From contig NZ_VTPX01000002.1 of assembly GCF_008298015.1 (NCBI RefSeq), forward strand, positions 62,001-126,000: a stretch of DNA of 64,000 nucleotides. Reading direction: 5' to 3'. Both the position numbers and the translations under genes were made by a program. Under the pieces are notes generated by a model. It was given only the letters and a program-made list of their open reading frames with translations. It was not told the DNA's origin and made no database searches. Positions 20,966-36,301 of this stretch are shown one piece after another. The stretch is from Salinicola corii. GTDB lineage: Bacteria > Pseudomonadota > Gammaproteobacteria > Pseudomonadales > Halomonadaceae. Every line of letters begins with the position of its first letter. Position 1 is the first letter of the stretch.

Positions 20966-20987
20966 TCGCCCGCGAGGAGAACCGACC

Positions 20988-23213
20988 ATGAGCGACAAAC
21001 AGCAGAGCATCATCGGCGCAGGCGTGCCGCGTATCGACGGCCCGGACAAGCTCTCCGGCCGCGCCAACTATGCCGCCGACAACCTGCCGCCCGACCTGGC
21101 CTACGGCTACGGCGTCTTCAGTACCATTGCCAGTGGCAGGGTCTCGCAGTTGAGCGTCGACGAGGCCCGCAAGATGCCCGGCGTCGTCGATATCTTCCAT
21201 CACGGCCACTTTCCGTCGCTGTACCGGACGCCATCGAGCTTCGCCCAGGGCAACAAGGTCGAGGAGACCCGGCTACCGTTCGAGGACGAACGCGTCTACT
21301 ACGAAGGGCAGTTCGTGGCACTGGTGGTCGCGGACACCTTCGAGAACGCCCGGGCCGCGGCACGGCGGGTCAAGGTGACCTACTCGGCCGACCAGGCCGT
21401 GGCCAATCTCGACCAGGGCGTCGAGGCCAACGGCACCCAGGCGGGCAGCGGCAATCATGATCGCGGCGATGCGGCCTCGGCGTTCGATGGCGCGGCGACC
21501 ACCATCGATGTGACCTACCGCACGCCGGTGGAGACCCATAATCCGATGGAGATGCACGCTTCCACTGCCTGGTGGGACAACGGCGACCTGACGATCTTCG
21601 ACGCCACCCAGGGCGTGGTGGTGGCGCGCAACGCGCTCTCCAAGATCTTCGCCATTGCGCCGGAGCGCGTTACCGTGTACGCGCCTTACATCGGCTCCGG
21701 CTTCGGCGGCAAGCTGTGGACCTGGCCGCATGCCATCGCCGCGGCGGCGGCGTCGCGTGAACTCGAGCGTCCGGTGCAACTCGTCGTGCCACGTCAGCAG
21801 ATGTTCACCACGACAGGCCACCGGCCGGAAACGCGCCAGCGCCTGCGTCTGGCCACGGACGACAACGGAAAGCTAGTCTCGCTGCGTCATGAGTCGATCA
21901 ACACGACGTCCTTTACCGACCAGTACGTCGAGACCTGCGGCAGCGTGACCAAAAGTCTCTACAGTTGCCCCAATCTGACGGTGAGCCACGAGACCACCCA
22001 GGTGAATCGCGGCACGCCGACCTCGATGCGAGCCCCCGGTGCCGCGCCGGGGCTGTTCGCGCTGGAGTCGGCGATCGACGAGATGGCCGCCGCCGCCGGT
22101 GTCGATCCGCTGCAGTTCCGGCTCGACAACTACGCCGAGCGCGACGAGAGCAAGGATCTCGACTTCTCCAGCAACCATATCGTCGAAGCGACGAAACGGG
22201 CTGCCGAACGCTTCGGCTGGGCCGATCGCAACCCGCAGATCGGCAGTATGCGCGAGGGACGCGAGATCGTCGGTTATGGCGTGGCGGCGTGCAATTGGGA
22301 GGCGCTGAAGATGGCCTGCGACGCGCGCGTCTCGATCCGCGCCGACGGCACGGCGTTCGCCTCCTGCGCCACGCAGGACATCGGCACCGGCACATACACC
22401 ATCGTGGCCCAGACGGTCAGCGACGTGACCGGCATTCCCATCGACCGCATTACCGTCAAGCTCGGCGACTCCTCCTACCCGGATGGTCCTATCTCCGGCG
22501 GCTCCTGGGCGACGGCGACCACGCTGCCGGCCATCGCCGGGGCGGCACGCAATGCCCTCGACGAGATGAAACGCTACGCCACCGGCAGCAATGGCGCCTT
22601 CGCCGGAGCATCCAGCGACGCGCTGGATGCCACCGCCGGCGGCCTGCGCAACGCCGCCGGCAAGCAGGTGAGCTTCGCCGAGATTCTCGAGGCCGGGCGT
22701 TACGGTAGCGCCGACGGTGAAGCGCATACCGAGGCTGCCGACTCTAAGTACTCCTATCGCTCCTTCGGCGCTCATTTCGTCGAGGTGCGCTGGGATCCCG
22801 GCATTTCGCGTCTGCGCGTGGCGCGGGTGGTCAGCGCCATTGACGTGGGCAAGGTGATCAACGAAACCACCGCACGCAACCAGGTCGAAGGCGCCGTGGT
22901 GATGGGCATTGGCATGGGGTTGTTCGAGGCCACCGAGTACGACGAGCGCAACGCGCGGCCGGTCAACAACGACTACGCCGAATACGTGGTGCCGGTGCAT
23001 GCCGACCAACCGGAGATCGACGTGATCCTGCTCGACTACCCGGATCTGGCGTTCAACGAGTACGGCGCCCGTGGTATCGGCGAGATCGGTACCACCGGGC
23101 TCGCGGCGGCCATTGCCAACGCGGTCCATCACGCCACTGGCAAGCGTATCCGCGAACTGCCTATCACCCTCGACAAGCTGATGGGCGACGTGCCCCAGGC
23201 ACGGAGTGCATGA
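20988..23213 (+). CDS. paoC: Aldehyde oxidoreductase molybdenum-binding subunit
   Basis: A 741-residue catalytic subunit of the xanthine-oxidase family (PaoC/YagR type) that hydroxylates aldehydes to carboxylic acids at a molybdenum centre. Family features are IDGPDKLSGRANYAADN at the N-terminus, GSGFGGKLWTWPHAIAAAAA, the RAPGAAPGLFALESAIDEMA loop and GARGIGEIGTTGLAAAIANA containing the catalytic glutamate. It has no signal of its own and would leave the cell with Tat-tagged PaoA. No PaoD/XdhC-type maturation gene is adjacent. Confidence 0.94.
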   Translation: MSDKQQSIIGAGVPRIDGPDKLSGRANYAADNLPPDLAYGYGVFSTIASGRVSQLSVDEARKMPGVVDIFHHGHFPSLYRTPSSFAQGNKVEETRLPFEDERVYYEGQFVALVVADTFENARAAARRVKVTYSADQAVANLDQGVEANGTQAGSGNHDRGDAASAFDGAATTIDVTYRTPVETHNPMEMHASTAWWDNGDLTIFDATQGVVVARNALSKIFAIAPERVTVYAPYIGSGFGGKLWTWPHAIAAAAASRELERPVQLVVPRQQMFTTTGHRPETRQRLRLATDDNGKLVSLRHESINTTSFTDQYVETCGSVTKSLYSCPNLTVSHETTQVNRGTPTSMRAPGAAPGLFALESAIDEMAAAAGVDPLQFRLDNYAERDESKDLDFSSNHIVEATKRAAERFGWADRNPQIGSMREGREIVGYGVAACNWEALKMACDARVSIRADGTAFASCATQDIGTGTYTIVAQTVSDVTGIPIDRITVKLGDSSYPDGPISGGSWATATTLPAIAGAARNALDEMKRYATGSNGAFAGASSDALDATAGGLRNAAGKQVSFAEILEAGRYGSADGEAHTEAADSKYSYRSFGAHFVEVRWDPGISRLRVARVVSAIDVGKVINETTARNQVEGAVVMGIGMGLFEATEYDERNARPVNNDYAEYVVPVHADQPEIDVILLDYPDLAFNEYGARGIGEIGTTGLAAAIANAVHHATGKRIRELPITLDKLMGDVPQARSA

Positions 23214-23341
23214 CAGAGAGAAAGGTGCGAAGCGCGTGATGTAGAACGGCACGAAATGCCTGACGGATAGAGGGGCGTGGAGTGCGCGGCGGAGAGAGCG
23301 ACGCCAAGCGCGAGCGTGACCAGCGACTGCGAAACGACGAC

Positions 23342-23366
23342 GCCGGCCTCATGGCCGGCGTTGTTC
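23342..23366 (+). terminator. Hairpin terminator after the first pao operon
   Basis: ACGCCGGCC pairs with GGCCGGCGT around TCAT, followed by TGTT. It lies between the convergent paoC and TRAP-permease genes, 13 bases from the latter's stop, so it could act for either strand. The T-run is short. Confidence 0.6.
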
Positions 23367-23378
23367 CGATCGATGGGC

Positions 23379-24704
23379 TTACAGCGCAATCAGCGAGATG
23401 GCCGGCACGTAGGTGACGATCAGCAAGCCGATCAAAGAGACGATCAGGAAAGGGACAACGCCTCGGGCGATACGCCCCAATGGCAGGCCGGTGATATTGG
23501 CCGCCACGAACAGGTTGATGCCCACTGGTGGGGTGATGAGGCCGATGGAGAGCGCCGTCATCAGTGCCACGCCAAACCAGGTCGGATCGAGCCCCAGTTG
23601 CTGAACCACCGGCATGAAGATCGGCAGGGTGATGAACATGATGGTGATGGCGTCCATGAACATGCCGGCCAGCAGCAGAATCATCATCATCATCAGAACG
23701 ATGACCCAGGGGCTCTGGCTCACGCCGAGCAGGGCGTCAGAGTAGTCGTTGACCAGCCCGTCCACGACCACTACCCAACCGAAGAGGCTGGCGAACGCCA
23801 CGACCAGCATGACCACCGCCGATGACCCTGCCGATTCCGCCACGCAGGCGAACAACGAGCGCAGGCTGAGTGTGCGATAGACGAAGAAGCCGACGAACAT
23901 GGCGAATACCGTCGCCACGATAGCCGCCTCGGTGGGCGTGAACAGCCCGCCGTAGATACCGCCGAGAATGACGACGGGTGTGAGCAGACCCCAGAAGGCT
24001 TCACGGAACGAGCGTAATAGACGTTTGGCGTAGGGTTGCCCGTCTCCTCGTTCCACTACCTGTCGAAAGGAGGTGTCTGCCGCTGCGCTTTCGCCGGCTG
24101 TCGGCGGGGGCATCAGTTTGGCGAACGGCAGCGCGCAGAGCATCAGTACGCCAAGCATCAAGCCCGGCAGAATGGCGGCCAGGAACAGGTCCGAAATGGA
24201 CGTGCCCGCCAGAATCCCGTAGATCACCAAACCGATGGAGGGCGGAATGATCAGGGACAGGGCGGCGCCCGTGCAGACCAGGCCCGCCGCGAAGGCGCGG
24301 GAGTAGCCGTCGGCGACCATGCCGCGAATGATCAGCGGCCCGATCGCCGCCACCGACGCCGGCCCTGAGCCGCTGACCGCTCCCCAGAACAGGCAGACGA
24401 CGGTGCCGACCAGCCCCATCCCACCCGGAAGACCGCCCACCAGTGTGCGGAAGAAGTTGATCATCTTCTCGGCAATGCCGGTGATACCCATGATGTTGCC
24501 GGCGAGGATGAAGAACGGAATGGCCAGCAGCGAGTATTTGGCGATGCCGGAGACGATCAGGTCACCGACCATGTCGAGGCCGAAGCCCATCACGTACATG
24601 GCGGCCATCGCGGAGAGCGCCAGGCTGAATGCCACCGGAACGCGAATGAGGACCAGCACGAAGAACAGGATGATCATCTGCGTACCGGCTGAGAGGTCTA
24701 GCAT
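23379..24704 (-). CDS. dctM: TRAP transporter large permease, DctM type
   Basis: A 441-residue, about 12-helix permease of a tripartite ATP-independent periplasmic transporter. It starts MLDLSAGTQMIILFF at 24704, overlapping the end of the small-permease gene by 7 bases; the frame upstream to 24881 is read-through inside that gene. AIPFFILAGNIMGITGIAEK and SGSGPASVAAIGPLIIRGM are DctM signatures, and the C-terminal GLITPPVGINLFVAA is strongly conserved. It is the last gene of the dctP-dctQ-dctM operon and drives Na+-coupled uptake. Confidence 0.94.
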   Translation of the reverse strand: MLDLSAGTQMIILFFVLVLIRVPVAFSLALSAMAAMYVMGFGLDMVGDLIVSGIAKYSLLAIPFFILAGNIMGITGIAEKMINFFRTLVGGLPGGMGLVGTVVCLFWGAVSGSGPASVAAIGPLIIRGMVADGYSRAFAAGLVCTGAALSLIIPPSIGLVIYGILAGTSISDLFLAAILPGLMLGVLMLCALPFAKLMPPPTAGESAAADTSFRQVVERGDGQPYAKRLLRSFREAFWGLLTPVVILGGIYGGLFTPTEAAIVATVFAMFVGFFVYRTLSLRSLFACVAESAGSSAVVMLVVAFASLFGWVVVVDGLVNDYSDALLGVSQSPWVIVLMMMMILLLAGMFMDAITIMFITLPIFMPVVQQLGLDPTWFGVALMTALSIGLITPPVGINLFVAANITGLPLGRIARGVVPFLIVSLIGLLIVTYVPAISLIAL

Positions 24705-25174
24705 GAGGCGTCTCCCGGCCGGCGGAATTCGGCGATGGCCAGCTCGAGCTGGCGGATCATCAGCATGAGGAACCCCAGCGGCACGATCAGCGTGTAGTAC
24801 CACTGCGGTATCTGCAGCGCGCTGGAAACGACGCCGCTGGTGAATTGGTGGCTCAGCAGCGTCACCGTGAACAGCGTGCATAGCGCCAGGGTCGCAATGA
24901 TCAACAGCGTCGACAGGACGACCAGAGCCCGCTTGAAGGAAGCGGGAACGAGGTCGTAGAACACCGTGACCGCGAGGTGCTGTCCTTTCTTCGCGGCGAT
25001 CGCCGCGCCGAAGACCGTCAGCAGCACCATGCCGTTGATGATCAGCTCCTGGGTCGATGCCAGCGAGTAGTTGGTGAGATTACGTACCGCGACATTGATG
25101 AAGCCCAGTAGCGTCATGCAGAGAAACACGCAGCCGCAGATGACTTCCTCGAGATGACGCCAGACTGATCGCAT
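24698..25174 (-). CDS. dctQ: TRAP transporter small permease, DctQ type
   Basis: A 158-residue, four-helix membrane protein (VFLCMTLLGFINVAVRNLTN; LIINGMVLLTVFGAAIAAKKGQH; LVVLSTLLIIATLALCTLF; QWYYTLIVPLGFLMLMIRQLE). The pattern of a helix followed by NVAVRN and an AAKKGQH loop is typical of DctQ. It overlaps the large-permease start and lies 33 bases downstream of the binding-protein gene. Confidence 0.92.
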   Translation of the reverse strand: MRSVWRHLEEVICGCVFLCMTLLGFINVAVRNLTNYSLASTQELIINGMVLLTVFGAAIAAKKGQHLAVTVFYDLVPASFKRALVVLSTLLIIATLALCTLFTVTLLSHQFTSGVVSSALQIPQWYYTLIVPLGFLMLMIRQLELAIAEFRRPGDASC

Positions 25175-25207
25175 GATGTTCCACCCTCGTTCTGCCTGGA
25201 CACCCGG

Positions 25208-26209
25208 CTACTGGCTGTCCGCTTCGCCGACCGACTGCTCGAAGGTCTGCACCAGATCCTCACCCACGCGCGCTGCCCACTGGTCGTAGACGTCGCTGGT
25301 AGCATCCCGGAAGGCCTGCAGCTGATCTTCATCCAGCGTGGTGATCTCCATGCCGTTCTGCTTCAGTGTGTCCACCCCGGTGCTCGTCTGCTCGCGGGCC
25401 AGGTTTCGCTGGTAGGCCATCGCCTGCTGGGCGGCGTCTCGTACCAGGGACTGCGTGTCGGCGTCCCAGCTGTTCCAGAGTCGTTCGCTGACGCCGACGA
25501 AGATCGGGTCGTAGGAGTAGTGCCACTCGGTGAGGTAGTCCTGCACCTCGTAGAGGCGCTGCGGCACGATGATCGATCCCACCGGGTTCTCCTGCCCATC
25601 GACCACGCCCTGCTGGAGCGCCGAAAAGGTCTCGGTCCACTGGATCTGTTGCGGGTTGGCGCCCAGCGCGTCGAACACATCGATATACATCGGTCCGGCG
25701 ACGCGGATCTTCATGCCGCGCAGATCGTCGGGCGAGGATACCGGCTTGACGCTGTTGGTCAGCTCGCGGAAACCGTTCTCGCCCCAGGCGAGAATCTCGA
25801 TACCTTTATCCCGGGCGATATCCTTCACGGCATCGCCCGGCTCGCCCTGGATGGCGCGATCCACCTGTTCGTAGTCGGTGAACAGATAGGGGAGCGAGAA
25901 CACCGCCATCTCCGGAATCAGCGGGGTGACATTGATGGCCGAGGTGATGACGAAATCGATGTCCCCACGCCCCACCATCTCCGACTGCTTCATCTGGTCG
26001 CCGCCGGAGAGCACGGCATTGGGGAAGATGCGCACGCCGATGTCGCCATCGGAAGCCTGTGCCAGCAGCTCGTTGAATTTCTCTGCGCCTTTTTGCCAGG
26101 ACGTGGCATCGGAAGTGTTGTGCGTCAGGCGATAGGTCTCCGCCTGAGCCAAGTTGGATGATAGCGCCAAGCACAGTGCGACTGCCGTCGGGATTATCGA
26201 GAGCTTCAT
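25208..26209 (-). CDS. dctP: TRAP transporter substrate-binding protein, DctP type (first copy)
   Basis: A 333-residue periplasmic binding protein with a signal peptide ending LAQA/ETYRL. The DctP pattern is clear: VLSGGDQMKQSEMVGRGDID, LRGMKIRVAG with the arginine that in this family pairs with a substrate carboxylate, and QGVVDGQENPVGSIIVPQR. It opens the dctP-dctQ-dctM operon. A near-palindromic TTCC-N-GGAA element lies 19 bases upstream of its ATG. The divergent gene at 26550 encodes a close paralogue. Confidence 0.94.
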   Translation of the reverse strand: MKLSIIPTAVALCLALSSNLAQAETYRLTHNTSDATSWQKGAEKFNELLAQASDGDIGVRIFPNAVLSGGDQMKQSEMVGRGDIDFVITSAINVTPLIPEMAVFSLPYLFTDYEQVDRAIQGEPGDAVKDIARDKGIEILAWGENGFRELTNSVKPVSSPDDLRGMKIRVAGPMYIDVFDALGANPQQIQWTETFSALQQGVVDGQENPVGSIIVPQRLYEVQDYLTEWHYSYDPIFVGVSERLWNSWDADTQSLVRDAAQQAMAYQRNLAREQTSTGVDTLKQNGMEITTLDEDQLQAFRDATSDVYDQWAARVGEDLVQTFEQSVGEADSQ

Positions 26210-26227
26210 CGTCGTTCGCCTTTAATG

Positions 26228-26242
26228 TTCCGCAAAGTGGAA
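26228..26242. promoter_or_regulatory. Candidate IclR-type operator before the TRAP operon
   Basis: TTCCGC-AAA-GTGGAA has the same 6-3-6 layout as the perfect palindrome at 26435, with one mismatch between its arms. It sits immediately upstream of the minus-strand dctP start, where a bound repressor would block transcription. Confidence 0.5.
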
Positions 26243-26434
26243 TTTTATTTCTTGTTGAGCGAAGAGTGACTGACGCCATCTGTCTGCGAAATTGGACGAT
26301 GGTTGTAAATAGCGTCCAGTTATTTCCAGTTTTTCACTTCATTCGGCGTCATGGCACGCTTGTTTCCCCGATGGACAGGGGCGTTGTTATCGACGTTTCG
26401 GCATTGCATGGCGCTACGACGTGGGCTTTCTATG

Positions 26435-26449
26435 TTCCATAAAATGGAA
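26435..26449. promoter_or_regulatory. Candidate IclR-type operator before the second dctP
   Basis: A perfect inverted repeat, TTCCAT-AAA-ATGGAA, 100 bases before the start of the second binding-protein gene. The same arms recur before the thiolase gene at 29348, with TTT in the middle. Confidence 0.65.
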
Positions 26450-26549
26450 TGTAGTTAATATGTCGTATTGCTGAGGTGGGTGTGGGTTCACGATGCTCCG
26501 GGAGTCGGTCATGACTCGGCACCCACTTTCGAAGGATCAGGAGATCGTT

Positions 26550-27560
26550 ATGCCAGTATTCAGACAGGCTTGGATCGTTGCGTTAGGTTGCGCCACTCTC
26601 GTGGCGTCGGCAGCAGTCAGTGCCGAAACGCTCAGGCTGTCCAGTGAAACCAGTGACTCCACCAGCCGCAATATGGGCGCCGAGCGTTTTGCCCAGCTAG
26701 TCGATGAGGCGACCAACGGTGACATGCAGGTTCGTGTATTCGGCAATGCGGTGCTGTCTGGCGGCGATCAATTGCGCCAGGCGGAAATGGTGGGGCGTGG
26801 GGACATCGACTTCGTGCTCTCGACCGCTATATCGGTGTCGCCGTTGATACCGGAAATGGCGGTCTTCTCCCTGCCTTACCTGTATCGCAACTACGACGAG
26901 GTCGATGCCACGCTCGAGGGCGAACCGGCTCGTCGGATGGAGCAGATCATGGCAGAGCATGGTCTGGTCGTGCTCGGCTGGGGGGAGAGCGGTTTCCGCG
27001 AGCTGACCAACAGCGTCAAGCCGGTATCCTCGCCCGACGATCTGCGCGGCATGAAGGTTCGCGTTGCCGGTCCGATGTTCATCGACGTCATGGATGAGCT
27101 GGGTGCCAACCCGCAGCAGATCCAGTGGACCGAAACCTTTTCGGCGCTGCAGCAGGGTGTGGTCGATGGGCAGGAGAATCCTGTCGGCGCCATCATCGTG
27201 CCGCAGCGGATTTACGAGGTTCAGACTTACCTGACCGACTGGCACTACTCATACGATCCCGCCTTCCTTGCCGTCAGTCGGGCGAAATGGGACTCCTGGA
27301 GTCCCGATATGCAGACGACTATGCGCCAGGCCGCCGAGGAGGCGATGGCGTATCAGAAATCACTCACTCGCGAACAGACCGAGTCCGGATACGACATCCT
27401 TGTCGAGCATGGCATGAAGGTCACGCGGCTGGAGGATGCCGAGCTGGCGGCTTTTCAGCAGGCCACGCGCCAGACGTTCGATTCCTGGTCCCGGAAGGTC
27501 GGCCCTGAGCTGGTCGAAAGTTTCGAGCAAACCATAGCTGGGGTGCGTGACGCTGAATGA
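26550..27560 (+). CDS. TRAP transporter substrate-binding protein, DctP type (second copy)
   Basis: A 336-residue periplasmic protein starting MPVFRQAWIV at 26550, 6 nt after AGGAG, with a signal peptide ending AAVSA/ETLRL. It shares long identical stretches with the divergent DctP, including VSPLIPEMAVFSLPYL-like and ANPQQIQWTETFSALQQG segments, and keeps the conserved arginine in LRGMKVRVAG. No separate permease genes accompany it, so it may share DctQM with the first copy. An ORF for a dehydrogenase follows 69 bases downstream. Confidence 0.92.
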   Translation: MPVFRQAWIVALGCATLVASAAVSAETLRLSSETSDSTSRNMGAERFAQLVDEATNGDMQVRVFGNAVLSGGDQLRQAEMVGRGDIDFVLSTAISVSPLIPEMAVFSLPYLYRNYDEVDATLEGEPARRMEQIMAEHGLVVLGWGESGFRELTNSVKPVSSPDDLRGMKVRVAGPMFIDVMDELGANPQQIQWTETFSALQQGVVDGQENPVGAIIVPQRIYEVQTYLTDWHYSYDPAFLAVSRAKWDSWSPDMQTTMRQAAEEAMAYQKSLTREQTESGYDILVEHGMKVTRLEDAELAAFQQATRQTFDSWSRKVGPELVESFEQTIAGVRDAE

Positions 27561-27579
27561 CTCGGCATCGGGCATCGAG

Positions 27580-27603
27580 CCGGCCGTCATGTCCATCGGC
27601 CGG
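27580..27603 (+). terminator. Possible attenuating hairpin after the second dctP
   Basis: CCGGCCG (27580-27586) pairs with CGGCCGG (27597-27603) across a 10-base loop between dctP and the SDR gene. With no T-run it could be a partial terminator or an mRNA-stabilising element, raising binding protein over the enzyme downstream. Weak evidence. Confidence 0.3.
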
Positions 27604-27629
27604 TGCACAACAGTTGCGAGGAGGCGAAC

Positions 27630-28433
27630 ATGAAGGCGTTGCTGAATGACAGGCGCGTTATGGTTGTGGGGGCCGGCTCCTGTGGTGAGGGCTGGGGGAA
27701 TGGTAAGGCAGCGGCTGTGGCCTACGCCCGTGAAGGTGCTCGCGTGATCGCCGTGGATCGCGACCTGGAGGCGGCGCGCGCAACCCAGGCCTTGATTCAG
27801 GCCGAAGGGGGATTCTGCGAAACGGTAGCGGCAGACGTGAGCCGAACCGATGACATCATTGCAATGGTCGAAGCCGCAATGGGGCATCTGGGGGGTATCG
27901 ATGTGCTGCACAACAACGTGGGCATTGCCATCACGGGAGGCCCCGAGGAGACGTCGGAGGAGGAGTGGGAGCGTGTCTTGCGAATCAATCAGACCAGCGT
28001 TTTTCTGATCTGCAAGCACGTACTGCCGATCATGCGCCGGCAAGGCGCGGGAAGCATCGTGAATATCTCCTCGATTGCCGCGCTGCGCTGGATCGGTTTC
28101 GCCTACTCGGCCTACACCACTTCCAAGGCGGCGATCGTCGCCTTCACCGAGAATCTGGCGGCTCAGTATGCTGCCGACGGCATCCGCGCCAACTGCATAC
28201 TGCCTGGGCTCATGAACACGCCAATGATCCATGCGCCATTGACGGCGGCCTACGGTGGTGATGCCGAGGCGATGATCGAGAAGCGCAATCGCCAATGTCC
28301 CATGGGGTTCATGGGGGATGCCTGGGACGTTGCCAACGCCTCGCTGTTTCTCGCCTCCGACATGGCACGATATGTCACCGGCGTCAGCCTGAATGTCGAC
28401 GGAGGGTTCTCGCTGCGTGCCGCCGTCGGATGA
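27630..28433 (+). CDS. Short-chain dehydrogenase/reductase
   Basis: A 267-residue classical SDR starting MKALLNDRRVMVVGAG at 27630, after GAGGAGGCGAAC. The dinucleotide-binding loop is a longer variant, GAGSCGEGWGNGKAAA, instead of TGxxxGxG. The rest is standard: NNVG, NISSIAAL with the catalytic serine, YTTSK with the catalytic Tyr and Lys, and a C-terminal VDGGFSL. Such enzymes oxidise or reduce hydroxy/keto groups with NAD(P). It lies between the transporter and the CoA-pathway genes, so oxidation of a hydroxyacyl intermediate is a reasonable guess. Confidence 0.9.
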   Translation: MKALLNDRRVMVVGAGSCGEGWGNGKAAAVAYAREGARVIAVDRDLEAARATQALIQAEGGFCETVAADVSRTDDIIAMVEAAMGHLGGIDVLHNNVGIAITGGPEETSEEEWERVLRINQTSVFLICKHVLPIMRRQGAGSIVNISSIAALRWIGFAYSAYTTSKAAIVAFTENLAAQYAADGIRANCILPGLMNTPMIHAPLTAAYGGDAEAMIEKRNRQCPMGFMGDAWDVANASLFLASDMARYVTGVSLNVDGGFSLRAAVG

Positions 28434-28451
28434 GCCGGACAGTCCGGCTCA
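28431..28451. terminator. Palindrome formed by the two convergent stop codons
   Basis: TGAGCCGGA (28431-28439) and its exact complement TCCGGCTCA (28443-28451) surround CAG. The outer three bases on each side are the TGA stop codons of the SDR gene (plus) and the IclR gene (minus). The hairpin could terminate both transcripts, though no T-run is present. Confidence 0.6.
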
Positions 28452-29234
28452 CCTGGTCATCTGGGCTTTTCGGATCTTCGCCTTGAGGGCCTGGGCTTCC
28501 TTTACCAGGCGCGGGCCCAGCTCGCGCTGGCGATCCGGTTGCATGCGGCTCTCGATGGCGGCAACCGAGAGAGAGCCCAGCACCCGGCCGTGACAATCAC
28601 GCACCGCGGCACCGATCCCCCACGAGCCGGAAACCACCGAGCCGCGGTTGATGCCGTAACCCAGTGCGCGGCACTCGGCAATGCGGGGGCGATGATCCTC
28701 GCGCTGATCGTTGGGGAAGCACGCAGCGCACTCCTCCGCGTTGGCCTCCAGGCACTGCTCGATCTCGTCGTCGTCCATGGCGGCGAGCATGGCGATGCCG
28801 CCGCCGCCGACCCCGAGTGGTAGCCGCGTGCCCGGTTGCAGCACATGCGTCTTGATCGGATAGCTGCCGTCCTCGCGGATCAGGCAGATCGAATGCCATT
28901 CGCTGCGCAGCGAGAAGAAGGCGCTGTCACCAGTGTCGGCGGCGATTCGTGCCACCGGCGTCGAGGCGATCTGGCTCAGTCCATAGCGCTGGTTGGCGAT
29001 CACGCCCAGTGCATAGCACTCCGGGCCGAGAAAGTACCCCTCCTTGTCGCTTCTCTCGACCATGCCTTCGGCCATGAGCGCTTGAAGCAGGCGATGTACG
29101 GTGGGTTTGGAGAGCGTCGTCTGCTGGGTGATGTAGGCGAGCGAAACCCCCTTGCCCAGTTGTCCGGCGATGGCGCGAAGCACTTGCATGGTGCGATAGG
29201 TGGACTGAGCCCCCTGAATATGGCCTGAACTCAT
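28449..29234 (-). CDS. IclR family transcriptional regulator
   Basis: A 261-residue regulator. The N-terminal winged helix-turn-helix covers about residues 10-75 (VSLAYITQQTTLSKPTVHRL, then LMAEGMVERSDKEGYFLGPE), followed by a GAF-like effector domain with LPLGVGGGGIAMLAAM and RGSVVSGSWGIGAAVRD. ATG at 29234 is preferred over a GTG one codon earlier. IclR proteins usually bind short palindromes and sense aromatic or organic acids. It is the only regulator inside the 23-34 kb cluster and is divergent from the thiolase operon. Confidence 0.92.
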   Translation of the reverse strand: MSSGHIQGAQSTYRTMQVLRAIAGQLGKGVSLAYITQQTTLSKPTVHRLLQALMAEGMVERSDKEGYFLGPECYALGVIANQRYGLSQIASTPVARIAADTGDSAFFSLRSEWHSICLIREDGSYPIKTHVLQPGTRLPLGVGGGGIAMLAAMDDDEIEQCLEANAEECAACFPNDQREDHRPRIAECRALGYGINRGSVVSGSWGIGAAVRDCHGRVLGSLSVAAIESRMQPDRQRELGPRLVKEAQALKAKIRKAQMTR

Positions 29235-29250
29235 CACGTTGATCCTCGTG

Positions 29251-29265
29251 TTCCATAATGTGGCC
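29251..29265. promoter_or_regulatory. Degenerate copy of the TTCCAT operator near the iclR start
   Basis: TTCCAT-AAT-GTGGCC keeps one perfect arm and a weak second arm. It lies just upstream of the regulator start on the minus strand, where it could mediate autoregulation. Tentative. Confidence 0.3.
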
Positions 29266-29347
29266 TAATTATTTGGTCGATATCATCGATTTTTATGTTG
29301 AAGGCCTGATAGTCGGCGAATAACTTGAAATAAAGCCGATTTGTTTA

Positions 29348-29362
29348 TTCCATTTTATGGAA
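29348..29362. promoter_or_regulatory. Candidate IclR operator before the thiolase operon
   Basis: TTCCAT-TTT-ATGGAA is a perfect palindrome; flanking A and T extend it to ATTCCAT-TTT-ATGGAAT (29347-29363). It ends 12 bases before the ATG of the thiolase gene, covering part of the leader just before its ribosome-binding site, and lies between the divergent iclR and thiolase genes. Confidence 0.7.
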
Positions 29363-29374
29363 TCAGGAGAAAAT

Positions 29375-30544
29375 ATGTCAACTCGAGCGCGGATAGTCGG
29401 TTGGTCGCATCTTCCCTTCGGGAAACGTACCGAGCCGGACACGGAAGCGATGATCGGCCAGGTCGTGAAGGACGTTCTGCAGCATGGAGGCGTGCCGGCA
29501 GCCGATGTCGACGCCGTCTACCTGGGGGTCATGAACAACGGATTCTCCAAACAGGATTTCCAGGCCGCCCTGGTGGCGATGGCGGACGACGAGCTCATGC
29601 ACACGCCGGCGACACGGCTCGAGAACGCTTGCGCCACCGGCTCCGCCGCCCTGCATGCGGGGCTGGATTTCATCGAATCCGGCCGCGGCAGAATCGCCCT
29701 GGTGGTAGGGGCGGAGAAAATGACGTCACTGCCGACCTCGGAGGTCGGCGACGTCCTGCTGGGTGCCAGCTATCGCAAGGAAGAGATGACCGCAGGCGGC
29801 TTTCCTGGTGTCTTCGCGAGCATCGCGGATGAGTATTTTCGTCGCTACGGCGACCGGCGCGAGGAACTGGCGCTCATCGCTGCCAAAAACCACCGCAACG
29901 GCGTTGCCAATCCTTTCGCCCATGTGCGCAAGGATCTGGGGTTCGAGTTCTGCCATACCGTCAGCGACAACAATCCCATCGTGGCCGATCCGTTGCGCCG
30001 TACCGATTGTTCGCTGGTCTCCGATGGTGCCGCGGCGATCCTGCTCGCCGACGAGGAGACGGCGCTGACGCTGGAGCGGGCCATCGCTTTCCGTTCCCGG
30101 GTTCAGAAAAACGACATCATGGCCTTGAGTCGCCGTGATCCCCTGGCGTTTGCCGGTGCGGCCGGCGCCTGGCGCGCAGCATTGGAGAGTGCCCGGATTA
30201 CCCTCGATGACCTCGATTTCGTGGAAACCCATGACTGTTTCACGATCGCCGAATTGATCGAGTACGAAGCCATGGGGCTGACGGCTCCCGGTGAAGGCCA
30301 TCGTGCCATTCGCGAGGGCTGGACTTACAAGGATGGCCGGCTGCCGGTCAACCCTTCCGGCGGGCTCAAGGCCAAGGGCCATCCCGTGGGGGCTACCGGC
30401 GTCTCGATGCACGTGATGGCCTGCATGCAGCTGATGGGTGAGGCCGGCGACATGCAAATCCCCGGTGCCAACCTGGCCGGTGTGTTCAACATGGGCGGAG
30501 CCGCCGTGGCGAACTACGTCAGCGTCATGGAGCGCAGCCGATGA
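29375..30544 (+). CDS. Thiolase, SCP-x/acetyl-CoA acetyltransferase-like
   Basis: A 389-residue thiolase-fold enzyme beginning MSTRARIVGW at 29375, after CAGGAGAAAAT. The nucleophilic cysteine is Cys86 in ENACATGSAALH. ETHDCFTIAELIEYEAMGL is the SCP-x-type HDCF motif, and NPSGGLKAKGHPVGATG carries the catalytic His region. These enzymes cleave or form beta-ketoacyl-CoA, often of branched or steroid-like chains. The following gene overlaps its stop codon as ATGA, and the operon runs through the ligase and two PPC proteins. Confidence 0.92.
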   Translation: MSTRARIVGWSHLPFGKRTEPDTEAMIGQVVKDVLQHGGVPAADVDAVYLGVMNNGFSKQDFQAALVAMADDELMHTPATRLENACATGSAALHAGLDFIESGRGRIALVVGAEKMTSLPTSEVGDVLLGASYRKEEMTAGGFPGVFASIADEYFRRYGDRREELALIAAKNHRNGVANPFAHVRKDLGFEFCHTVSDNNPIVADPLRRTDCSLVSDGAAAILLADEETALTLERAIAFRSRVQKNDIMALSRRDPLAFAGAAGAWRAALESARITLDDLDFVETHDCFTIAELIEYEAMGLTAPGEGHRAIREGWTYKDGRLPVNPSGGLKAKGHPVGATGVSMHVMACMQLMGEAGDMQIPGANLAGVFNMGGAAVANYVSVMERSR

Positions 30545-32154
30545 GCGGGGCGGTACGACAGCCGGCATGCGGCATCGTGCCGGTCAGCAAGCGAGTGATG
30601 AACCTCGCCAACTTCCTGAGCCAGGCGATGCGGCGATATCCCGATGCACCGGCATTGGTGATGGGCGAAGCCTCTCTGTCATGGCGCGAGTTGGATCGGC
30701 GCGTCAGCGCGCTGGCGCTGGCGCTGAAAGCACGGGGCCTGGGCAAAGGGGATCGATTGCTGGTCCATAGCCGTAACGGTTTCGAGATGGTGGAGACCCA
30801 GCTGGCGGCGTTTCGGCTGGGGGCTGTGTGGGCACCGGCGAACTTTCGGATCTCCCCCGGCGAGGCCCAGTGGCTTGCCGAATTGACCGAAGCCAGGATC
30901 CTTGTCATCGGGGCGGAATTCGAGCGCCACTACGAGGCCATTCGCGACATCGGCCCGGGTCTCGCCTTTACCGTAAGAATTGGTGAGGGGACGTTCGGCG
31001 ATGCCGCATACGACGACTTCCTGCGCGAGTACGAGGGTCAGGCGTGCGCCAACGCCGACGTGGAGCACGATGACCCCTGCTGGTTCTTCTTCACCTCGGG
31101 CACGACGGGAAAGTCGAAGGCGGCGGTGCTGACGCATGGCCAGATGGGGTTCATCACCACCAATCACCTCTGCGATCTCATGCCCGGCACGGATCAGGCG
31201 ACCGATGCCAGTCTGGTCGTGGCACCGCTGTCCCACGGCTCGGGAATACACTACCTCACCCAACTGGCGCGTGGGGTCAAGACCGTGTTGCCCACGGCCA
31301 GTGGCTTCGATGGCGACGAGATCTGGCGTCTGATCGAGACGCATCGCATCACCAACCTGTTTACCGTGCCGACCATCGTCAAGATGCTGGTCGAGGATCC
31401 CGCCTGCGAGCGCTACGACCATTCATCGCTGCGCTACATCATCTATGCCGGCGCGCCGATGTATCGCGCCGATCAGAAACGGGCGCTCGAGCGGCTCGGC
31501 AAGGTGCTGGTGCAGTATTACGGCCTGGGCGAGGTCACTGGAAACATCACCGTGCTGCCACCGAGCCTCCATAGCGCCGATGACGGCGGCTTCAAGATCG
31601 GCACCTGCGGCTACGACAGAACCGCCATGCAGGTTTCCGTGCAGGATGACGAAGGGCGTGAACTGCCACCCCATGAAACGGGGGAGATCTGTGTCTGTGG
31701 CCTCGGTGTCTTCGCCGGCTACTACGCCAATCCGGAAGCCAATGCGAAGTCGTTCCGCCATGGCTGGTTCCGTACCGGCGACCTGGGGCATCTCGATGAA
31801 GAGGGATTTCTCTATATCACCGGGCGCGCTTCCGACATGTTCATTTCGGGGGGCTCCAACATCTATCCGCGGGAGATCGAGGAGAAGATGCTGACCCATC
31901 CCGGGATTCGGGAAGTGGCGATCGTCGGGATGCCGGACGAGCAGTGGGGGGAGGTCGGCGTCGCGGCGGTGGTGCCGTCCGAGGGTAGCCAACTGGACGT
32001 GGAAGCGCTGCAGGCTTGGGTCAAGGAGCGAGTCTCGAGCTACAAGGTGCCGCGCCGTTATCACCTCTTCGAGACGTTGCCGAAATCCAACTACGGCAAG
32101 ATCACCAAGAAGATCATCCGGCAAGCCATCGAGGATCGGGAGGCACGCTCATGA
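30541..32154 (+). CDS. Acyl-CoA synthetase (AMP-dependent ligase)
   Basis: A 537-residue ANL-family ligase forming acyl-adenylate and then acyl-CoA from a carboxylic acid. The P-loop is FFTSGTTGKSKAAVLTHG, the adenylate-binding motif YYGLGEVTGN, the hinge region GWFRTGDLGHLDEEGFLYITGR-type sequence at about residues 405-425, and the C-terminal catalytic lysine lies in KSNYGKITKK. ATG 30541 overlaps the thiolase stop; MNLANFLSQAM at 30598 is an alternative start closer to the family N-terminus. It probably activates the acid imported by the TRAP system. Confidence 0.93.
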   Translation: MSGAVRQPACGIVPVSKRVMNLANFLSQAMRRYPDAPALVMGEASLSWRELDRRVSALALALKARGLGKGDRLLVHSRNGFEMVETQLAAFRLGAVWAPANFRISPGEAQWLAELTEARILVIGAEFERHYEAIRDIGPGLAFTVRIGEGTFGDAAYDDFLREYEGQACANADVEHDDPCWFFFTSGTTGKSKAAVLTHGQMGFITTNHLCDLMPGTDQATDASLVVAPLSHGSGIHYLTQLARGVKTVLPTASGFDGDEIWRLIETHRITNLFTVPTIVKMLVEDPACERYDHSSLRYIIYAGAPMYRADQKRALERLGKVLVQYYGLGEVTGNITVLPPSLHSADDGGFKIGTCGYDRTAMQVSVQDDEGRELPPHETGEICVCGLGVFAGYYANPEANAKSFRHGWFRTGDLGHLDEEGFLYITGRASDMFISGGSNIYPREIEEKMLTHPGIREVAIVGMPDEQWGEVGVAAVVPSEGSQLDVEALQAWVKERVSSYKVPRRYHLFETLPKSNYGKITKKIIRQAIEDREARS

Positions 32155-32696
32155 GCCGCACGCTGCAGTCCGGTTATCACCGGCCCCGCATGCTGCGCCA
32201 TGTCGGTCGCTTCAGTCCGGTGCGGATCCAGAGCATGCACTATCAAAGCGGCCGTCATATCCGGCTGCTGCTCCAGCCTGGGCGCTCGCTCTATGACGCG
32301 CTGGTCCGGCCGTTGCAGGCCATCGGCGTCACCAGCGCATCGACCACCATCCTGGGTGGCCACTTCGATCATCTCGAGTACTGCGTCGCGCCTCCCGACC
32401 CGAGCGGCAAGGCCGTCATCGCCTACTCCAGCCCCATCGACGCGGGGGCGTCGTTCATGGTGTTCGGCAATGCCACCCTGGGCAAGGACATGGAAGGGCG
32501 GCCCCTGGTCCATTGCCACGCTTCCGTTCGCGTCGAGGACGGCAGCGTCAAGGGCGGCCATATCGTGCCTCAGGCATCGATCATCGGCGCCACGCCGATT
32601 TCCGTGCTGGTCACGGCGCTCGAAGGGTTCGAGCTGCGCCAGGCGTTCGACGACGAGACCAACATTCCCTTGTTGAAGCCGTTCAAGGAGTCGTGA
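32151..32696 (+). CDS. PPC (DUF296) domain protein, first of a pair
   Basis: A 181-residue protein starting at the ATG overlapping the ligase stop (ATGA). The PPC/DUF296 fold (plants and prokaryotes conserved) is indicated by LYDALVRPLQAIGVTSAST, then RPLVHCHASVRVEDGSVKGG and HIVPQASIIGATPISVLVTA. The HCHASV segment carries histidines that bind a metal in characterised prokaryotic members. Plant relatives are AT-hook DNA-binding proteins, but bacterial function is unknown. Placement inside a CoA-pathway operon points to an enzymatic or metabolite-binding role. Confidence 0.8.
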   Translation: MSRTLQSGYHRPRMLRHVGRFSPVRIQSMHYQSGRHIRLLLQPGRSLYDALVRPLQAIGVTSASTTILGGHFDHLEYCVAPPDPSGKAVIAYSSPIDAGASFMVFGNATLGKDMEGRPLVHCHASVRVEDGSVKGGHIVPQASIIGATPISVLVTALEGFELRQAFDDETNIPLLKPFKES

Positions 32697-32697
32697 C

Positions 32698-33117
32698 ATG
32701 TCGACTACGGAGACGACGCGAGTCGTGATCACAGAGTCGGGGCGGATGGGGCGCGTGGCCTACGCCCGCATTGCGCCGAACGAGGACCTCGTCCAGGGCG
32801 TCGAGAAGATGTGCTTGGCCGAGGGGTTCCGGAACGCCTTCGTGCGAGGCGGACTGGGGAGTCTGGTCGACGCCAGCCTGGGCACGCGCGATGGTGGCTA
32901 TCAGCAGATATCCGGTCCGGCGGTGGAGGTGGTCAGTATCGCCGGTGAGGTCCGCTCCGGAGCCGACGGCGTTCCCGTCGCCTCGCTGGCGGGTATCGTC
33001 GCGGACACCGATGGCAACGTCTACGGCGGGCCCTTCCTGGCCGGCTGGAATCCCGTCTGCATGACCTTCGAGGTGACGCTGGAGGAGTGGATACCCGACG
33101 GTGAAGAGCCGGCTTGA
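32698..33117 (+). CDS. PPC (DUF296) domain protein, second of a pair
   Basis: A 139-residue single-domain PPC protein beginning MSTTETTRVVITESGRMGRV just one base after the previous stop. The fold is visible in DLVQGVEKMCLAEGFRNAFV, GGLGSLVDASLGTRDGG and VYGGPFLAGWNPVCMTFEV. It lacks the HCHASV histidines of its neighbour (VASLAGIVADTDGNVYGG instead), so the pair may form a hetero-oligomer in which only one subunit binds metal. PPC proteins are usually trimers; hetero-trimers are an inference. Confidence 0.8.
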   Translation: MSTTETTRVVITESGRMGRVAYARIAPNEDLVQGVEKMCLAEGFRNAFVRGGLGSLVDASLGTRDGGYQQISGPAVEVVSIAGEVRSGADGVPVASLAGIVADTDGNVYGGPFLAGWNPVCMTFEVTLEEWIPDGEEPA

Positions 33118-33162
33118 GTGTCAGTGGCGGGTCGCGAATCGAAAGCTCACGAGGATAGCGCT

Positions 33163-33906
33163 ATGCAAGAGGCAGTGGTGGTGACCGGAGGGGCCTCCGG
33201 TATCGGTTTGGCCGTGGCAAGAACGTTGAAGACGCGGGGATTGGCGGTATGCCTCATCGATCGCTCCGAAGCCGGCCTGGCGGAAGCCTGCGCCGGGCTG
33301 GACGCGCCATCGTGCGATGGCATCGCGTGCGACGTCACCGACGAGGCGGCCATCGAAGCGGCCATCGCGGCCTTGTCCGAGCGCTACCGACTGGTCGGCG
33401 TCGTCAATTGCGCCGGTATCGGCATCGACAAGTCGACCATCGAAACGGGCGTCGAGGAGTTCCGCAGGATACTCGACGTCAACGTGGTCGGATCCTTTGT
33501 GGTGTCGCGCGAGCTGGCCCGCTACTGGACGACGCGAGGGCTCGCCGGGAGCATCGTCAATATTTCGTCGGTTTCGGGCCTCTGTGGCAACAAGGGGCGC
33601 AGTGCCTACGGCGCCTCCAAGGCCGGGCAGGATGCGCTGACCCGCGTGATGGCGTGCGAACTGGGCTCGCGGGGGATCCGCGTCAACTCCGTGGCCCCCG
33701 GGCCGATAGACACCCCGCTGGCGCGCGCCATCCATACCGACGACGTGCGCGACCAGTGGCATCAGCGCGTCTCGCTGAATCGATACGGCCAGCCCGATGA
33801 AGTCGCCAATGCGGTGGCGTTCCTGCTCTCCGACGAGGCTTCCTACGTCACGGGGCAGGTCCTGGCCGTCGATGGCGGGTTCGTCAGCGCAGGGTTGAGA
33901 GCGTAG
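33163..33906 (+). CDS. Short-chain dehydrogenase/reductase
   Basis: A 247-residue classical SDR starting MQEAVVVTGGASGIGLAVA at 33163, after CGAGGATAGCGCT. The TGGASGIG loop, NCAGIG, NISSVSGL (Ser), YGASK (Tyr/Lys) and a C-terminal VDGGFVSAG are all intact. An in-frame GTG at 33118 is less likely. It is the last gene of the thiolase operon; a second oxidation or reduction step is likely. Confidence 0.92.
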   Translation: MQEAVVVTGGASGIGLAVARTLKTRGLAVCLIDRSEAGLAEACAGLDAPSCDGIACDVTDEAAIEAAIAALSERYRLVGVVNCAGIGIDKSTIETGVEEFRRILDVNVVGSFVVSRELARYWTTRGLAGSIVNISSVSGLCGNKGRSAYGASKAGQDALTRVMACELGSRGIRVNSVAPGPIDTPLARAIHTDDVRDQWHQRVSLNRYGQPDEVANAVAFLLSDEASYVTGQVLAVDGGFVSAGLRA

Positions 33907-33987
33907 CTGTACCGAAGCCGGGCCGGTTCCCGCACCGCCACCGGCTCTCCTTTCCTGGCCATGGGGTGACGGCCCTTCATCACGACA

Positions 33988-34503
33988 TCACTCCTGCAGC
34001 GTCGCCTCGACCAGCTTCCGCATCGCCTGCTGGAGCGGTTTGACGGCGGGGCAGTCGGCGACGCCATGGCGCTGGGCGATCCAGGCCGGGTCGTTGTAGC
34101 CGAGCCAGGTCTGGCCGTCGGCATCCTGCCAGACCAGCGCCTTCATTGGCAGGTCGATCCCGGCGGTCGGGGCGCACTGCATCAGCGGCGTGCCACCCTT
34201 GGGATCGCCGAAGATGATCACTTCATTGGGCAGCAGCGCCATGCTGCGAGACATCGCGCCCTGGCGGTGATCGACCCGGGCGAATACGGTCATGCCGCTG
34301 GTCCGTGCCTGCTCGGCGAAGCGGATGGCGGTTTCGTGCACGCCGGCGTCGCTCCTGGCGACGATCATGCCGGGAACGGATGGCGTCGTCTCCTGTGCGG
34401 ATTCGGCCGGCGGTGTCGACTGCGCCGATACGCCGGCGGTGAAACCCAGCAGGCCGGCGGTGATCAGCGCGAGGCGCAGTTGGCGGAAGAACGGTCGGGG
34501 CAT
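33988..34503 (-). CDS. DUF302 domain exported protein
   Basis: A 171-residue protein starting MPRPFFRQLR at 34503, with a signal peptide ending GVSA/QSTPP. The DUF302 domain spans about residues 60-160: ETAIRFAEQARTSGMTVFAR, VDHRQGAM, PNEVIIFGDPKGGTPLMQ and LPMKALVWQDADGQTWLGYN. DUF302 proteins may bind small ligands or take part in stress responses. The gene precedes no partner of obvious related function; the antiporter gene overlaps its upstream region. Confidence 0.85.
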   Translation of the reverse strand: MPRPFFRQLRLALITAGLLGFTAGVSAQSTPPAESAQETTPSVPGMIVARSDAGVHETAIRFAEQARTSGMTVFARVDHRQGAMSRSMALLPNEVIIFGDPKGGTPLMQCAPTAGIDLPMKALVWQDADGQTWLGYNDPAWIAQRHGVADCPAVKPLQQAMRKLVEATLQE

Positions 34504-34582
34504 GTGTCGTCTCCGGGTCGAGGATGTCGTTCGGTGGTGTCGCTCGAGAATGTCGCTCGAGCGTGCGTGTTCAGCGTGTCGA

Positions 34583-36301
34583 TCAGTGATGCGCCACACC
34601 CTGGTCCCCGGTCAGCGCCGCTTCGGCCAGATCGACCTCGCGGACCAGCTTGCGCAGGACATTGTCGTTGATACGGTCGCGCTGGCGCAGCTTGTAGTAC
34701 TGGCGCCGCTCGGCGCGCAGCGCCTCCAGGCGGGTGTCGCGCTCCAACTGGCGGGAGGTGGCGAGCTGCGGCGTGGCGGTGTCGGCGGAGTGCAGGTTCA
34801 GACGCTCCCGGTAGTAGCTCATCAACTGGGAGCTGATGTCGTTGAACGCCATGATCGTCTCGTCGTTGGTCTTGTTGCGGGCGAACTCGCCGGTGCGATC
34901 GTGATGGTAGCGTTCGATGCGGTAGATGGCGGCCTCGGCACCGGCGATGCGCGCCTTACGCTCCTCCTCGAATTCATGGGTGTCGTTGGGGAGCTTGAGG
35001 TTTCGCAGTACCAGCGGCAAGCCGATGCTGCCGGTGATCAGCGTGAACAGGATCACGCCGGTCGCCAGGAAGATCATCAACTCCCGCGCCGGGAAGTCGG
35101 TGCCGTCGTTCATCAGGTGCGGCAGTGACAGCGCCGCCGCCAGGGTGATCGTGCCGCGAATACCGGCCAGCGTCGCCGCCAGCATCAGCTTCACCGGAAT
35201 CTGCCCGGTGCTCGCCGGCGGGGGGAGGCGCGGCTGACGCTTGATGAAGCCCATCACTCTCGACAGCCCCCGCCCGATGGCGCTGGCGAGCCAGATCCAG
35301 ATGAAGCGCGAGGCGAGCAGGGCGAGCGAGATCGCCGCCACGTAGCCCAGCAGGCGCAGGAATTCGTAGTCGCCGATATCGTGCAGCGAATGGTCCAGCG
35401 CCCCGCTGATGATCGCCGGCAGCTGGAACCCCAGCAGCAAAAAGACCAGCGCGTTGAGGACGAATTCGAGCATCTCCCACACCGCCTGGGTCTGCATGCG
35501 GGTGTGGAGCTGGCCGACGCGCTTGATGTCGGCACGATTCATCACCATGCCCGCGGCCACGGCGGAGAGGATGCCGGACATGCCGAGATGTTCGGCCAGC
35601 AGGTAGGCGGCGAAGGGGAGCAGCAGCACCAGCAGGATGACCTGGACCGTGGTGGCCTCGCCCAGGTGGCGTTCGATCAGCCGCGTGCGCAGGACATTGA
35701 AGCCGAAGGCCAGCAGCCCGCCCACCGCCAGGCCGCCGATCGAGATCAGCAGGAAGCTCCCGGCCGCGTCGGTCAGCGAGAAGGTGCCGGTCAGCGCCGC
35801 CGCGACGGCGAACTTGAACGCCACCAGGCCGGAGGCGTCGTTCATCAACGACTCCCCCTCGAGGATTCGCATCAAGCGCGGCGGCACCGGCAGGCGGCCG
35901 GAGATCGACGATACCGCCACCGCATCGGTGGGGGAGAGGATCGCCGCCAGGGCAAAGCAGATCGCCAGCGGCAGCGCCGGGAACAGGAGATGGATGAAGT
36001 AGCCGACCCCGACCACCGTGAACAGCACCAGCCCCAGCGCCAGGGCCAGGATCGGCCCGCGCAGGATCATGAACTCGCGCTGGGGGAAGCGCCGGGCATC
36101 GGAAAACAGCAGTGGCGCGATGAACAGCAGCAGGAATATCTCCGGCTCGAGTTCGACGTGCAGGCCCGATGCCGGCCATGCCAGCAGGGCGCCGAGAAAT
36201 ATCTGCACCAGCGGTGTCGGGAGGGCGGGAACGAACCGTGTCACGACCCCGGTCGCCGAGGCAACCAGCAGCAGAATCAGAACCAGAAATAGCGTATCCA
36301 T
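34583..36301 (-). CDS. Na+/H+ antiporter, CPA1 (NhaP/YjcE-like) family
   Basis: A 572-residue antiporter with about 12 membrane segments in residues 1-420 and a long hydrophilic C-terminal domain with helical, charge-rich sequence. The cation-binding ND motif is in GESLMNDASGLVAFK, FALAAILSPTDAVAVSS is conserved, and GIRGTITLAAALSLPHL is the family arginine-containing helix. It exchanges Na+ for H+ across the inner membrane, suiting a halophile. Confidence 0.93.
   Translation of the reverse strand: MDTLFLVLILLLVASATGVVTRFVPALPTPLVQIFLGALLAWPASGLHVELEPEIFLLLFIAPLLFSDARRFPQREFMILRGPILALALGLVLFTVVGVGYFIHLLFPALPLAICFALAAILSPTDAVAVSSISGRLPVPPRLMRILEGESLMNDASGLVAFKFAVAAALTGTFSLTDAAGSFLLISIGGLAVGGLLAFGFNVLRTRLIERHLGEATTVQVILLVLLLPFAAYLLAEHLGMSGILSAVAAGMVMNRADIKRVGQLHTRMQTQAVWEMLEFVLNALVFLLLGFQLPAIISGALDHSLHDIGDYEFLRLLGYVAAISLALLASRFIWIWLASAIGRGLSRVMGFIKRQPRLPPPASTGQIPVKLMLAATLAGIRGTITLAAALSLPHLMNDGTDFPARELMIFLATGVILFTLITGSIGLPLVLRNLKLPNDTHEFEEERKARIAGAEAAIYRIERYHHDRTGEFARNKTNDETIMAFNDISSQLMSYYRERLNLHSADTATPQLATSRQLERDTRLEALRAERRQYYKLRQRDRINDNVLRKLVREVDLAEAALTGDQGVAHH

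Follow-up and report, generated by a model that had tools for sequence, protein, structure and literature searches.

Operons that pair an acyl-coenzyme A (acyl-CoA) ligase with an SCP-x-type thiolase are known from side-chain beta-oxidation-type systems, and other SCP-x-type thiolases go with a DUF35 subunit. PPC proteins, acetolactate decarboxylase (ALDC) and Ptd012 belong to one structural superfamily. PTD012/C11orf54 is a His3-Zn protein with a structure related to acetolactate decarboxylase, and it is reported to decarboxylate the beta-keto acid 3-dehydro-L-gulonate (PMC12435205). Herein, a block of eleven genes from Salinicola corii that joins these families is described. The block occupies positions 23379-33906 of the window, which is the whole 64,000-nucleotide stretch analyzed (contig NZ_VTPX01000002.1, positions 62,001 to 126,000), and it encodes a TRAP transporter, an acyl-CoA ligase, a thiolase, two SDR oxidoreductases, an IclR regulator and two PPC/DUF296 proteins, PPC1 and PPC2.

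The block shares the NF005676 ligase, the NF005704 thiolase, SDRs and IclR with the side-chain beta-oxidation-type operons. Unlike them, it has no matches to acyl-CoA dehydrogenase, hydratase or DUF35, and a PPC pair stands at its core. PPC1 resembles the PPC/DUF296 proteins PH0802 (2dt4) and 2h6l in its domain and its HxH...GGH motif (weak profile matches, E 0.00054 and E 0.0022); in contrast to these, the pair described here is unequal, one member lacks the site, the ligase is a dedicated partner, and fusion is frequent. An HxH...GGH-like motif is also common to PPC1 and acetolactate decarboxylase (PF03306), whereas the motif spacing and the other conserved residues of acetolactate decarboxylase and PTD012 (DUF1907) differ from those of PPC1, with no significant sequence match. 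The enzyme families are already known. Among the titles and abstract openings of open-licence papers that literature searches listed, none described the gene set, the near-obligate pairing of ligase and PPC or the chemistry of that unit. Our favored reading, at a probability of roughly 45%, is an inducible catabolic cassette linked to IclR, which would serve an imported carboxylic acid bearing hydroxy or keto groups and would include PPC1-PPC2 as a metal enzyme.

Pairing and spread of the ligase and PPC genes

The thiolase, ligase, PPC1, PPC2 and SDR2 genes form a plus-strand unit. The SCP-x-type thiolase (29375..30544) carries a Thiolase_C_1 domain (PF22691, 124.1 bits) and scores 654.8 bits with NF005704, above the curated cut-off of 412. 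The AMP-dependent acyl-CoA ligase (30541..32154) belongs to PRK07470 (NF005676), with 854.7 bits versus a curated cut-off of 774. PPC1 (32151..32696), with HxH...GGH and DxET motifs, exceeds the PF03479 gathering cut-off of 25 bits by a small margin only (26.7 bits), and PPC2 (32698..33117), without the His site, exceeds it clearly (55 bits). These two proteins are the sole PCC (PF03479) matches in the genome. The thiolase and ligase genes overlap by ATGA at 30541-30544, and the ligase and PPC1 genes at 32151-32154, as the first-pass annotation of this region had read from the letters.

Ligase orthologs, counted at E <= 1e-150 only, were found in 24 of 398 sampled genomes of the phylum, and in all 24 they were clustered with PPC genes. 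A PPC1-like gene was located within 400 bp of the ligase in 22 of the 24 and 2.5 kb away in one. The 24th genome (G175) was missed by the PPC1 search; there a fused PPC gene adjoins the ligase. Conversely, 22 of 24 PPC1 places (E <= 1e-6) adjoin a ligase, the exceptions being G167:C124 and G125. These counts suggest that the ligase and PPC genes are nearly always found together, as a near-obligate pair. The thiolase was present in 23 of the 24 ligase genomes versus 20 of the 374 others. Only 8 of the 24 had thiolase and ligase no more than 10 kb apart, a looser linkage than that between ligase and PPC. In pairwise comparisons over 60 loci, the divergence values of the thiolase, the ligase and the two PPC proteins were correlated with one another (r 0.55-0.87, reached by none of 500 permutations), a correlation that could arise from common host ancestry alone.

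Named genomes were also scanned with PPC1 only, and 73 loci were fetched. The loci were at most about 20 kb long and some far shorter, and many rows were congeneric (e.g. Achromobacter). A narrow alignment, A3, served for scanning genome contigs. With counts that depend on the identity thresholds applied, the 73 loci contained PPC2 in 71, the ligase in 61, the thiolase in 60, a TRAP permease in 58 (0.2-8.1 kb from PPC1), SDR2 in 54 and IclR in 46. Ligase, thiolase, TRAP, IclR and SDR2 were all present in 41. Alpha-, Beta- and Gammaproteobacteria all include carriers of the gene set, in variable gene order, and it is not specific to this strain. This recurrence, and the absence of the block as a unit from eight relatives (see below), speak against a chance assembly. 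Most of the set was located on annotated plasmids of Roseomonas, Bartonella, Agrobacterium, Variovorax, Sinorhizobium and Terrarubrum, with LysR in place of IclR on the Variovorax plasmid. One Phyllobacterium record has an acyl-CoA synthetase, IclR and a fused PPC protein annotated; a second has IclR and the fused PPC protein annotated, plus an unlisted ligase match. The cassette is patchily distributed, and we infer that it moves between strains. The pathway is predicted in soil, marine and host-associated Proteobacteria.

Thirty plasmid records matched the TRAP binding protein DctP1, and in six that were inspected DctP1 was 59.6-65% identical. Ligase and thiolase were nearby in all six, and IclR and PPC in five (PPC four times fused and once split); the sixth was from Skermanella. 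On the Martelella plasmid the thiolase match is spread across three frames. Other loci carry a different TRAP transporter, often with a fused permease, at about 25-31% identity to DctM/DctP1. For a deep alphaproteobacterial branch (L155-L166), the stretches examined (5.4-19.9 kb) yielded no TRAP genes in 12 of 12 loci, and thiolase and ligase both lie beside PPC in 10 of the 12. Because the TRAP-less thiolase-ligase-PPC1-PPC2 set is conserved and two TRAP types occur with the same enzyme set, the transporter and the enzymes are separable modules. The first-pass annotation had treated the region as one system and had stated that conservation of the ligase and PPC genes independently of the transporter would argue otherwise. 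The unity of ligase and PPC has held up, and the block is absent as a unit from eight relatives (see below); the tie to the transporter is loosened in part by the deep branch and by the two TRAP types.

The PPC proteins and their predicted chemistry

PPC1 was aligned in 59 rows (alignment A4: the window, 52 of the 73 loci and six fused proteins; near-duplicate, frameshifted or short loci were left out). The residues H17, R25, H121, H123, H137, D167, E169 and T170 are invariant in all 59 rows. The three His of HxH...GGH, a predicted metal-type site, are also present in 59 of 59. A PF03479 match (E up to 1) was obtained for 57 of the rows, and the HCH...GGH stretch of PPC1 aligns with the same motif of the solved PPC proteins 2dt4 and 2h6l. 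PPC2 matches the PPC1 profile at E 6.2e-6; its residues in place of the three His are S, A and P. In the PPC2 alignment (A2, 15 rows), the three corresponding columns contain His in 1, 0 and 1 rows. PPC2 has thus lost the metal-type His site.

Fusions of PPC1 and PPC2 were found as 33 single-frame open reading frames (ORFs) in 93 loci, with the PPC1 domain first. A split pair and a fused PPC gene stand side by side in L055 and in other Agrobacterium-type loci (L102-L104, L114, L122, L126). The fused and the split forms therefore need not be interchangeable. In L055 and L114, a gene for an AsnC-type regulator is oriented divergently to the split pair.

In the proposed pathway, the TRAP transporter would import the acid, and the SDRs would oxidize its hydroxyl to a keto group. 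The ligase would form the CoA ester of the beta-keto acid, which the thiolase would cleave to acetyl-CoA and a shorter acyl-CoA. PPC1-PPC2 would act as a heteromeric metal-dependent enzyme, and IclR would act via binding at palindromes. A catalytic role for PPC in the pathway, of whatever kind, is considered probable. The specific reaction is far more tentative: metal-dependent decarboxylation or an acetolactate-type rearrangement of a beta-keto acid is the leading candidate while still a minority one. Beta-keto acid chemistry would fit because the SDRs would make the keto group, the ligase and the thiolase would use it, and a variant with E1/E2 genes exists. The beta-keto acid decarboxylation reported for PTD012 (PMC12435205) also counts in its favor.

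In the E1/E2 variant (L081, 11008-14142; L101, 15303-18942), the PPC pair occurs with E1alpha, E1beta and E2 dehydrogenase-complex genes, which replace ligase and thiolase; TRAP and SDR genes are also present. The E1beta passes the pyruvate-dehydrogenase subfamily cut-off, and a threonine-3-dehydrogenase-like enzyme of the same loci is below the cut-off of that family. An acetoin-type complex was not supported, with the acetoin-dehydrogenase E2 model scoring 86-91 against a cut-off of 307.

Taken more broadly, the odds are about even that PPC1-PPC2 is the first PPC system recognized as catalytic. It would be a zinc-type enzyme, heteromeric or fused, in which one subunit is active and the other degenerate, with a near-obligate ligase partner, and it would define an unmapped CoA-dependent keto/hydroxy-acid pathway across Proteobacteria, perhaps for acetolactate-like alpha-branched beta-keto acids. 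Through the near-strict pairing with the ligase, a family that often bears the name 'DNA-binding' gains an enzymatic role that can be tested. The pairing also turns the annotation into a defined question, namely which acid the TRAP protein binds and how PPC1-PPC2 acts on this acid or its CoA ester. If PPC is catalytic, many bacterial 'PPC DNA-binding protein' annotations would be wrong; should the PPC fold prove related to that of acetolactate decarboxylase and PTD012, a metal-dependent decarboxylase fold would be joined to CoA-linked catabolism.

Several results weigh against the favored cassette and its beta-keto acid chemistry. A decarboxylated beta-keto acid is not thiolysable unless a second carboxyl is present, so the combination of decarboxylase, ligase and thiolase would require a special substrate. 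No PPC1 match to the Pfam families of ALDC and DUF1907 was found at E up to 1 in the 59 rows. In favor of the relation, acetolactate decarboxylases from 8 of 9 loci show HxH...GGH, and this motif is where PPC1 and ALDC align best by profile; the alignment is not significant (hhalign probability 1.4%, E 0.037), and the fused PPC protein gave no significant match to the ALDC profile either (probability 0.2%, E 0.27). Direct sequence homology between PPC1 and acetolactate decarboxylase was thus not established by Pfam (E up to 1) or hhalign. In addition, 12 of the 73 loci, two of them short contigs, have neither ligase nor thiolase. A Skermanella rosea plasmid outside the 398-genome sample (L150, 4172-9936) carries ligase, thiolase and TRAP, its ligase being 63% identical, and no PPC gene was found in the 18.9 kb examined; another plasmid listed for Skermanella rosea has a PPC match. 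Finally, an AcuI-type acrylyl-CoA reductase gene or homolog lies directly 3' of PPC2 in 11 of 13 loci (the deep branch and L040), where the protein at L158 10800-11837 passes the AcuI cut-off with 441.8 versus 440 bits.

This last arrangement would be better fitted by enoyl-CoA chemistry and a dehydratase. The first-pass annotation had guessed that the PPC pair supplies the missing step of beta-oxidation, and the guess, while not established, is kept here as an alternative: PPC1-PPC2 could be a non-crotonase hydratase/dehydratase or lyase on the ligase-made CoA ester, replacing enoyl-CoA hydratase. The ligase-PPC clustering in 24 of 24 genomes and the Pfam matches of the block proteins, none of which is an acyl-CoA dehydrogenase or an enoyl-CoA hydratase, agree with it. 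The absence of these two enzymes had been read correctly from the sequence, and a standard beta-oxidation operon is rejected on this ground. However, six ECH_1 matches are located elsewhere in the genome, so the absence of a hydratase from the block is not its absence from the cell. The AcuI homolog was seen in the deep loci only; the 73 loci that are closer to the window showed none. We know of no dehydratase with a PPC fold, and this alternative is considered unlikely.

PPC1-PPC2 could also be a metal-dependent hydrolase, either a thioesterase, a lactonase or an ester hydrolase, with the role of preparing the acid or recycling CoA. The HxH...GGH site would suit such an enzyme, and PTD012 was reported to hydrolyze p-nitrophenyl acetate (PMC12435205). 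A further point is the hexapeptide-repeat protein located about 0.6 kb from the PPC pair in eight loci (L074 8937-9512, L067, L070-L072, L077, L078, L084), which is weakly gamma carbonic anhydrase/PaaY/CaiE-like and scores under the PaaY and CaiE cut-offs. PTD012 was, however, reported in the same commentary as the missing 3-dehydro-L-gulonate decarboxylase (PMC12435205), which leaves this reading a minor candidate.

The PPC pair could instead be a structural partner of the thiolase or the ligase, taking the place of a DUF35 subunit. No DUF35 match was found among the proteins of the block (Pfam), and the gene adjacency and the correlated divergence agree with such a role. The PPC pair persists without thiolase and ligase in the 12 loci mentioned above, and its tighter link is to the ligase and not to the thiolase, which makes a structural role quite improbable. 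A regulatory or DNA-binding role, suggested by the name 'PPC domain-containing DNA-binding protein' in several database records, is the least probable of all and was judged unlikely, as a Pfam search (E up to 1) with the 59 PPC1 rows gave no AT-hook family (a short motif may escape), the His site is conserved, the PPC genes lie within an enzyme operon with an ATGA overlap, and a regulator gene is already at hand in the form of IclR in 46 of 73 loci and of LysR or AsnC nearby in others.

For the substrate of the favored cassette, the best PDB match of both DctP1 and DctP2 is 4p8b, whose bound ligand we take to be 2-acetolactate. This match is used as a lead only. A review names 2-acetolactate as one of the TRAP ligands and does so without entry 4p8b (PMC5812351). 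Among the neighboring genes, an annotated acetolactate synthase large subunit is located near the PPC pair on a Roseomonas mucosa plasmid (L053 12769-14310), and a dihydroorotase-type gene lies 3.8-8.9 kb from PPC2 in nine loci. The hints from such neighbors (dihydroorotase-type amidohydrolase, GMC oxidoreductase, sugar-acid genes and the Roseomonas acetolactate synthase) depend on the locus and did not converge.

Transporter, regulator and predicted palindromic operators

All families named by the first-pass annotation, including a TRAP transporter with two binding proteins, were recovered by Pfam and NCBIfam profile matches. The three TRAP subunits are represented. DctP1, DctQ and DctM form a minus-strand run: the solute-binding protein DctP1 (25208..26209; PF03480, 273.9 bits), the small permease DctQ (24698..25174; PF04290, 84.7 bits), which overlaps the listed start of the DctM ORF, and the large permease DctM (23379..24881; PF06808, 338 bits; TIGR00786, 383.5 bits). 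A second plus-strand unit consists of the second solute-binding protein DctP2 (26493..27560, likely start 26551; PF03480, 246.5 bits) and SDR1 (27630..28433; PF13561, 200.7 bits). The IclR-family regulator (28449..29237, minus strand; PF01614 and PF09339) is followed by the thiolase-ligase-PPC1-PPC2 genes and by SDR2 (33163..33906, plus strand; PF13561, 225.1 bits). The preferred gene starts were read from the sequence and differ from the listed ORF starts, which are the upstream GTG 27603 for SDR1, ATG 29357 for the thiolase and the upstream GTG 33118 for SDR2.

Two perfect palindromes were found in the block. One, TTCCATAAAATGGAA, is located at 26435..26449 upstream of dctP2-SDR1, and the other, TTCCATTTTATGGAA, at 29348..29362 just 5' of the thiolase start; the upstream ATG 29357 of the thiolase falls within it. 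The exact form TTCCAT-N3-ATGGAA occurs at only these two places in the 4.66-Mb genome, each upstream of one plus-strand unit. At up to 3 mismatches, 12 sites were counted in the window versus 11.4 expected, with no enrichment. Weight is therefore placed on the exact sites only, and the degenerate operator-like copies 5' of dctP1 (26228..26242) and 5' of iclR (29251..29265), with 3 mismatches each and weak by themselves, are marginal.

The site type of the thiolase promoter recurs in relatives. KTCCAT-N3-ATGGAM, with up to 1 mismatch, was present in 34 of 61 IclR promoter windows of relatives and absent from 27, the 61 windows coming from mutually related loci and not from 61 independent events. 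The expectation was 0.0042 per window, with the rest of the same loci as background (10 sites in 1.14 Mb). An IclR gene thus occurs together with a common palindromic, predicted operator. The perfect palindromes are interpreted as IclR-type operators, to which IclR presumably binds.

Presence or absence of the block in Salinicola

Of 18 genomes from the genus, four carry PPC1. In these four carriers, the flanking molybdenum hydroxylase and NhaP genes are separated by 9.3-11.4 kb; in 8 of the 14 genomes without PPC1, the same genes are 0.7-1.5 kb apart. The other six non-carriers differ in arrangement: four have no close NhaP, one has no close hydroxylase ortholog beside NhaP, and in another the hydroxylase gene is fragmented and lies at a distance of about 8 kb.

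The eight empty-site genomes (L179, L180, L182-L185, L187, L189) were aligned to the window. The alignment of L182 ends at 23213 and restarts at 33983; the others stop on the left at 23196-23253 and restart on the right at 33980-34001, the left edge of L185 lying outside the examined stretch. An additional match of 31 bp in L189, at 23333-23361, makes the left edge of the block approximate. The block behaves as one unit, present or absent together, since eight relatives lack it at one and the same site and the exact operators occur only here. One carrier, L062, does not have DctP2-SDR1, and this pair is therefore a sub-module.

Two gene sets for molybdenum-hydroxylase subunits (FAD-binding and molybdenum cofactor (Moco)-binding) flank the block, at 19634-23213 and 36574-40436. 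These genes and NhaP were considered as parts of the system and rejected, as they are retained where the block is missing. A DUF302 gene (33988-34599) forms the right edge of the insertion site, where the empty-site alignment resumes at about 33983.

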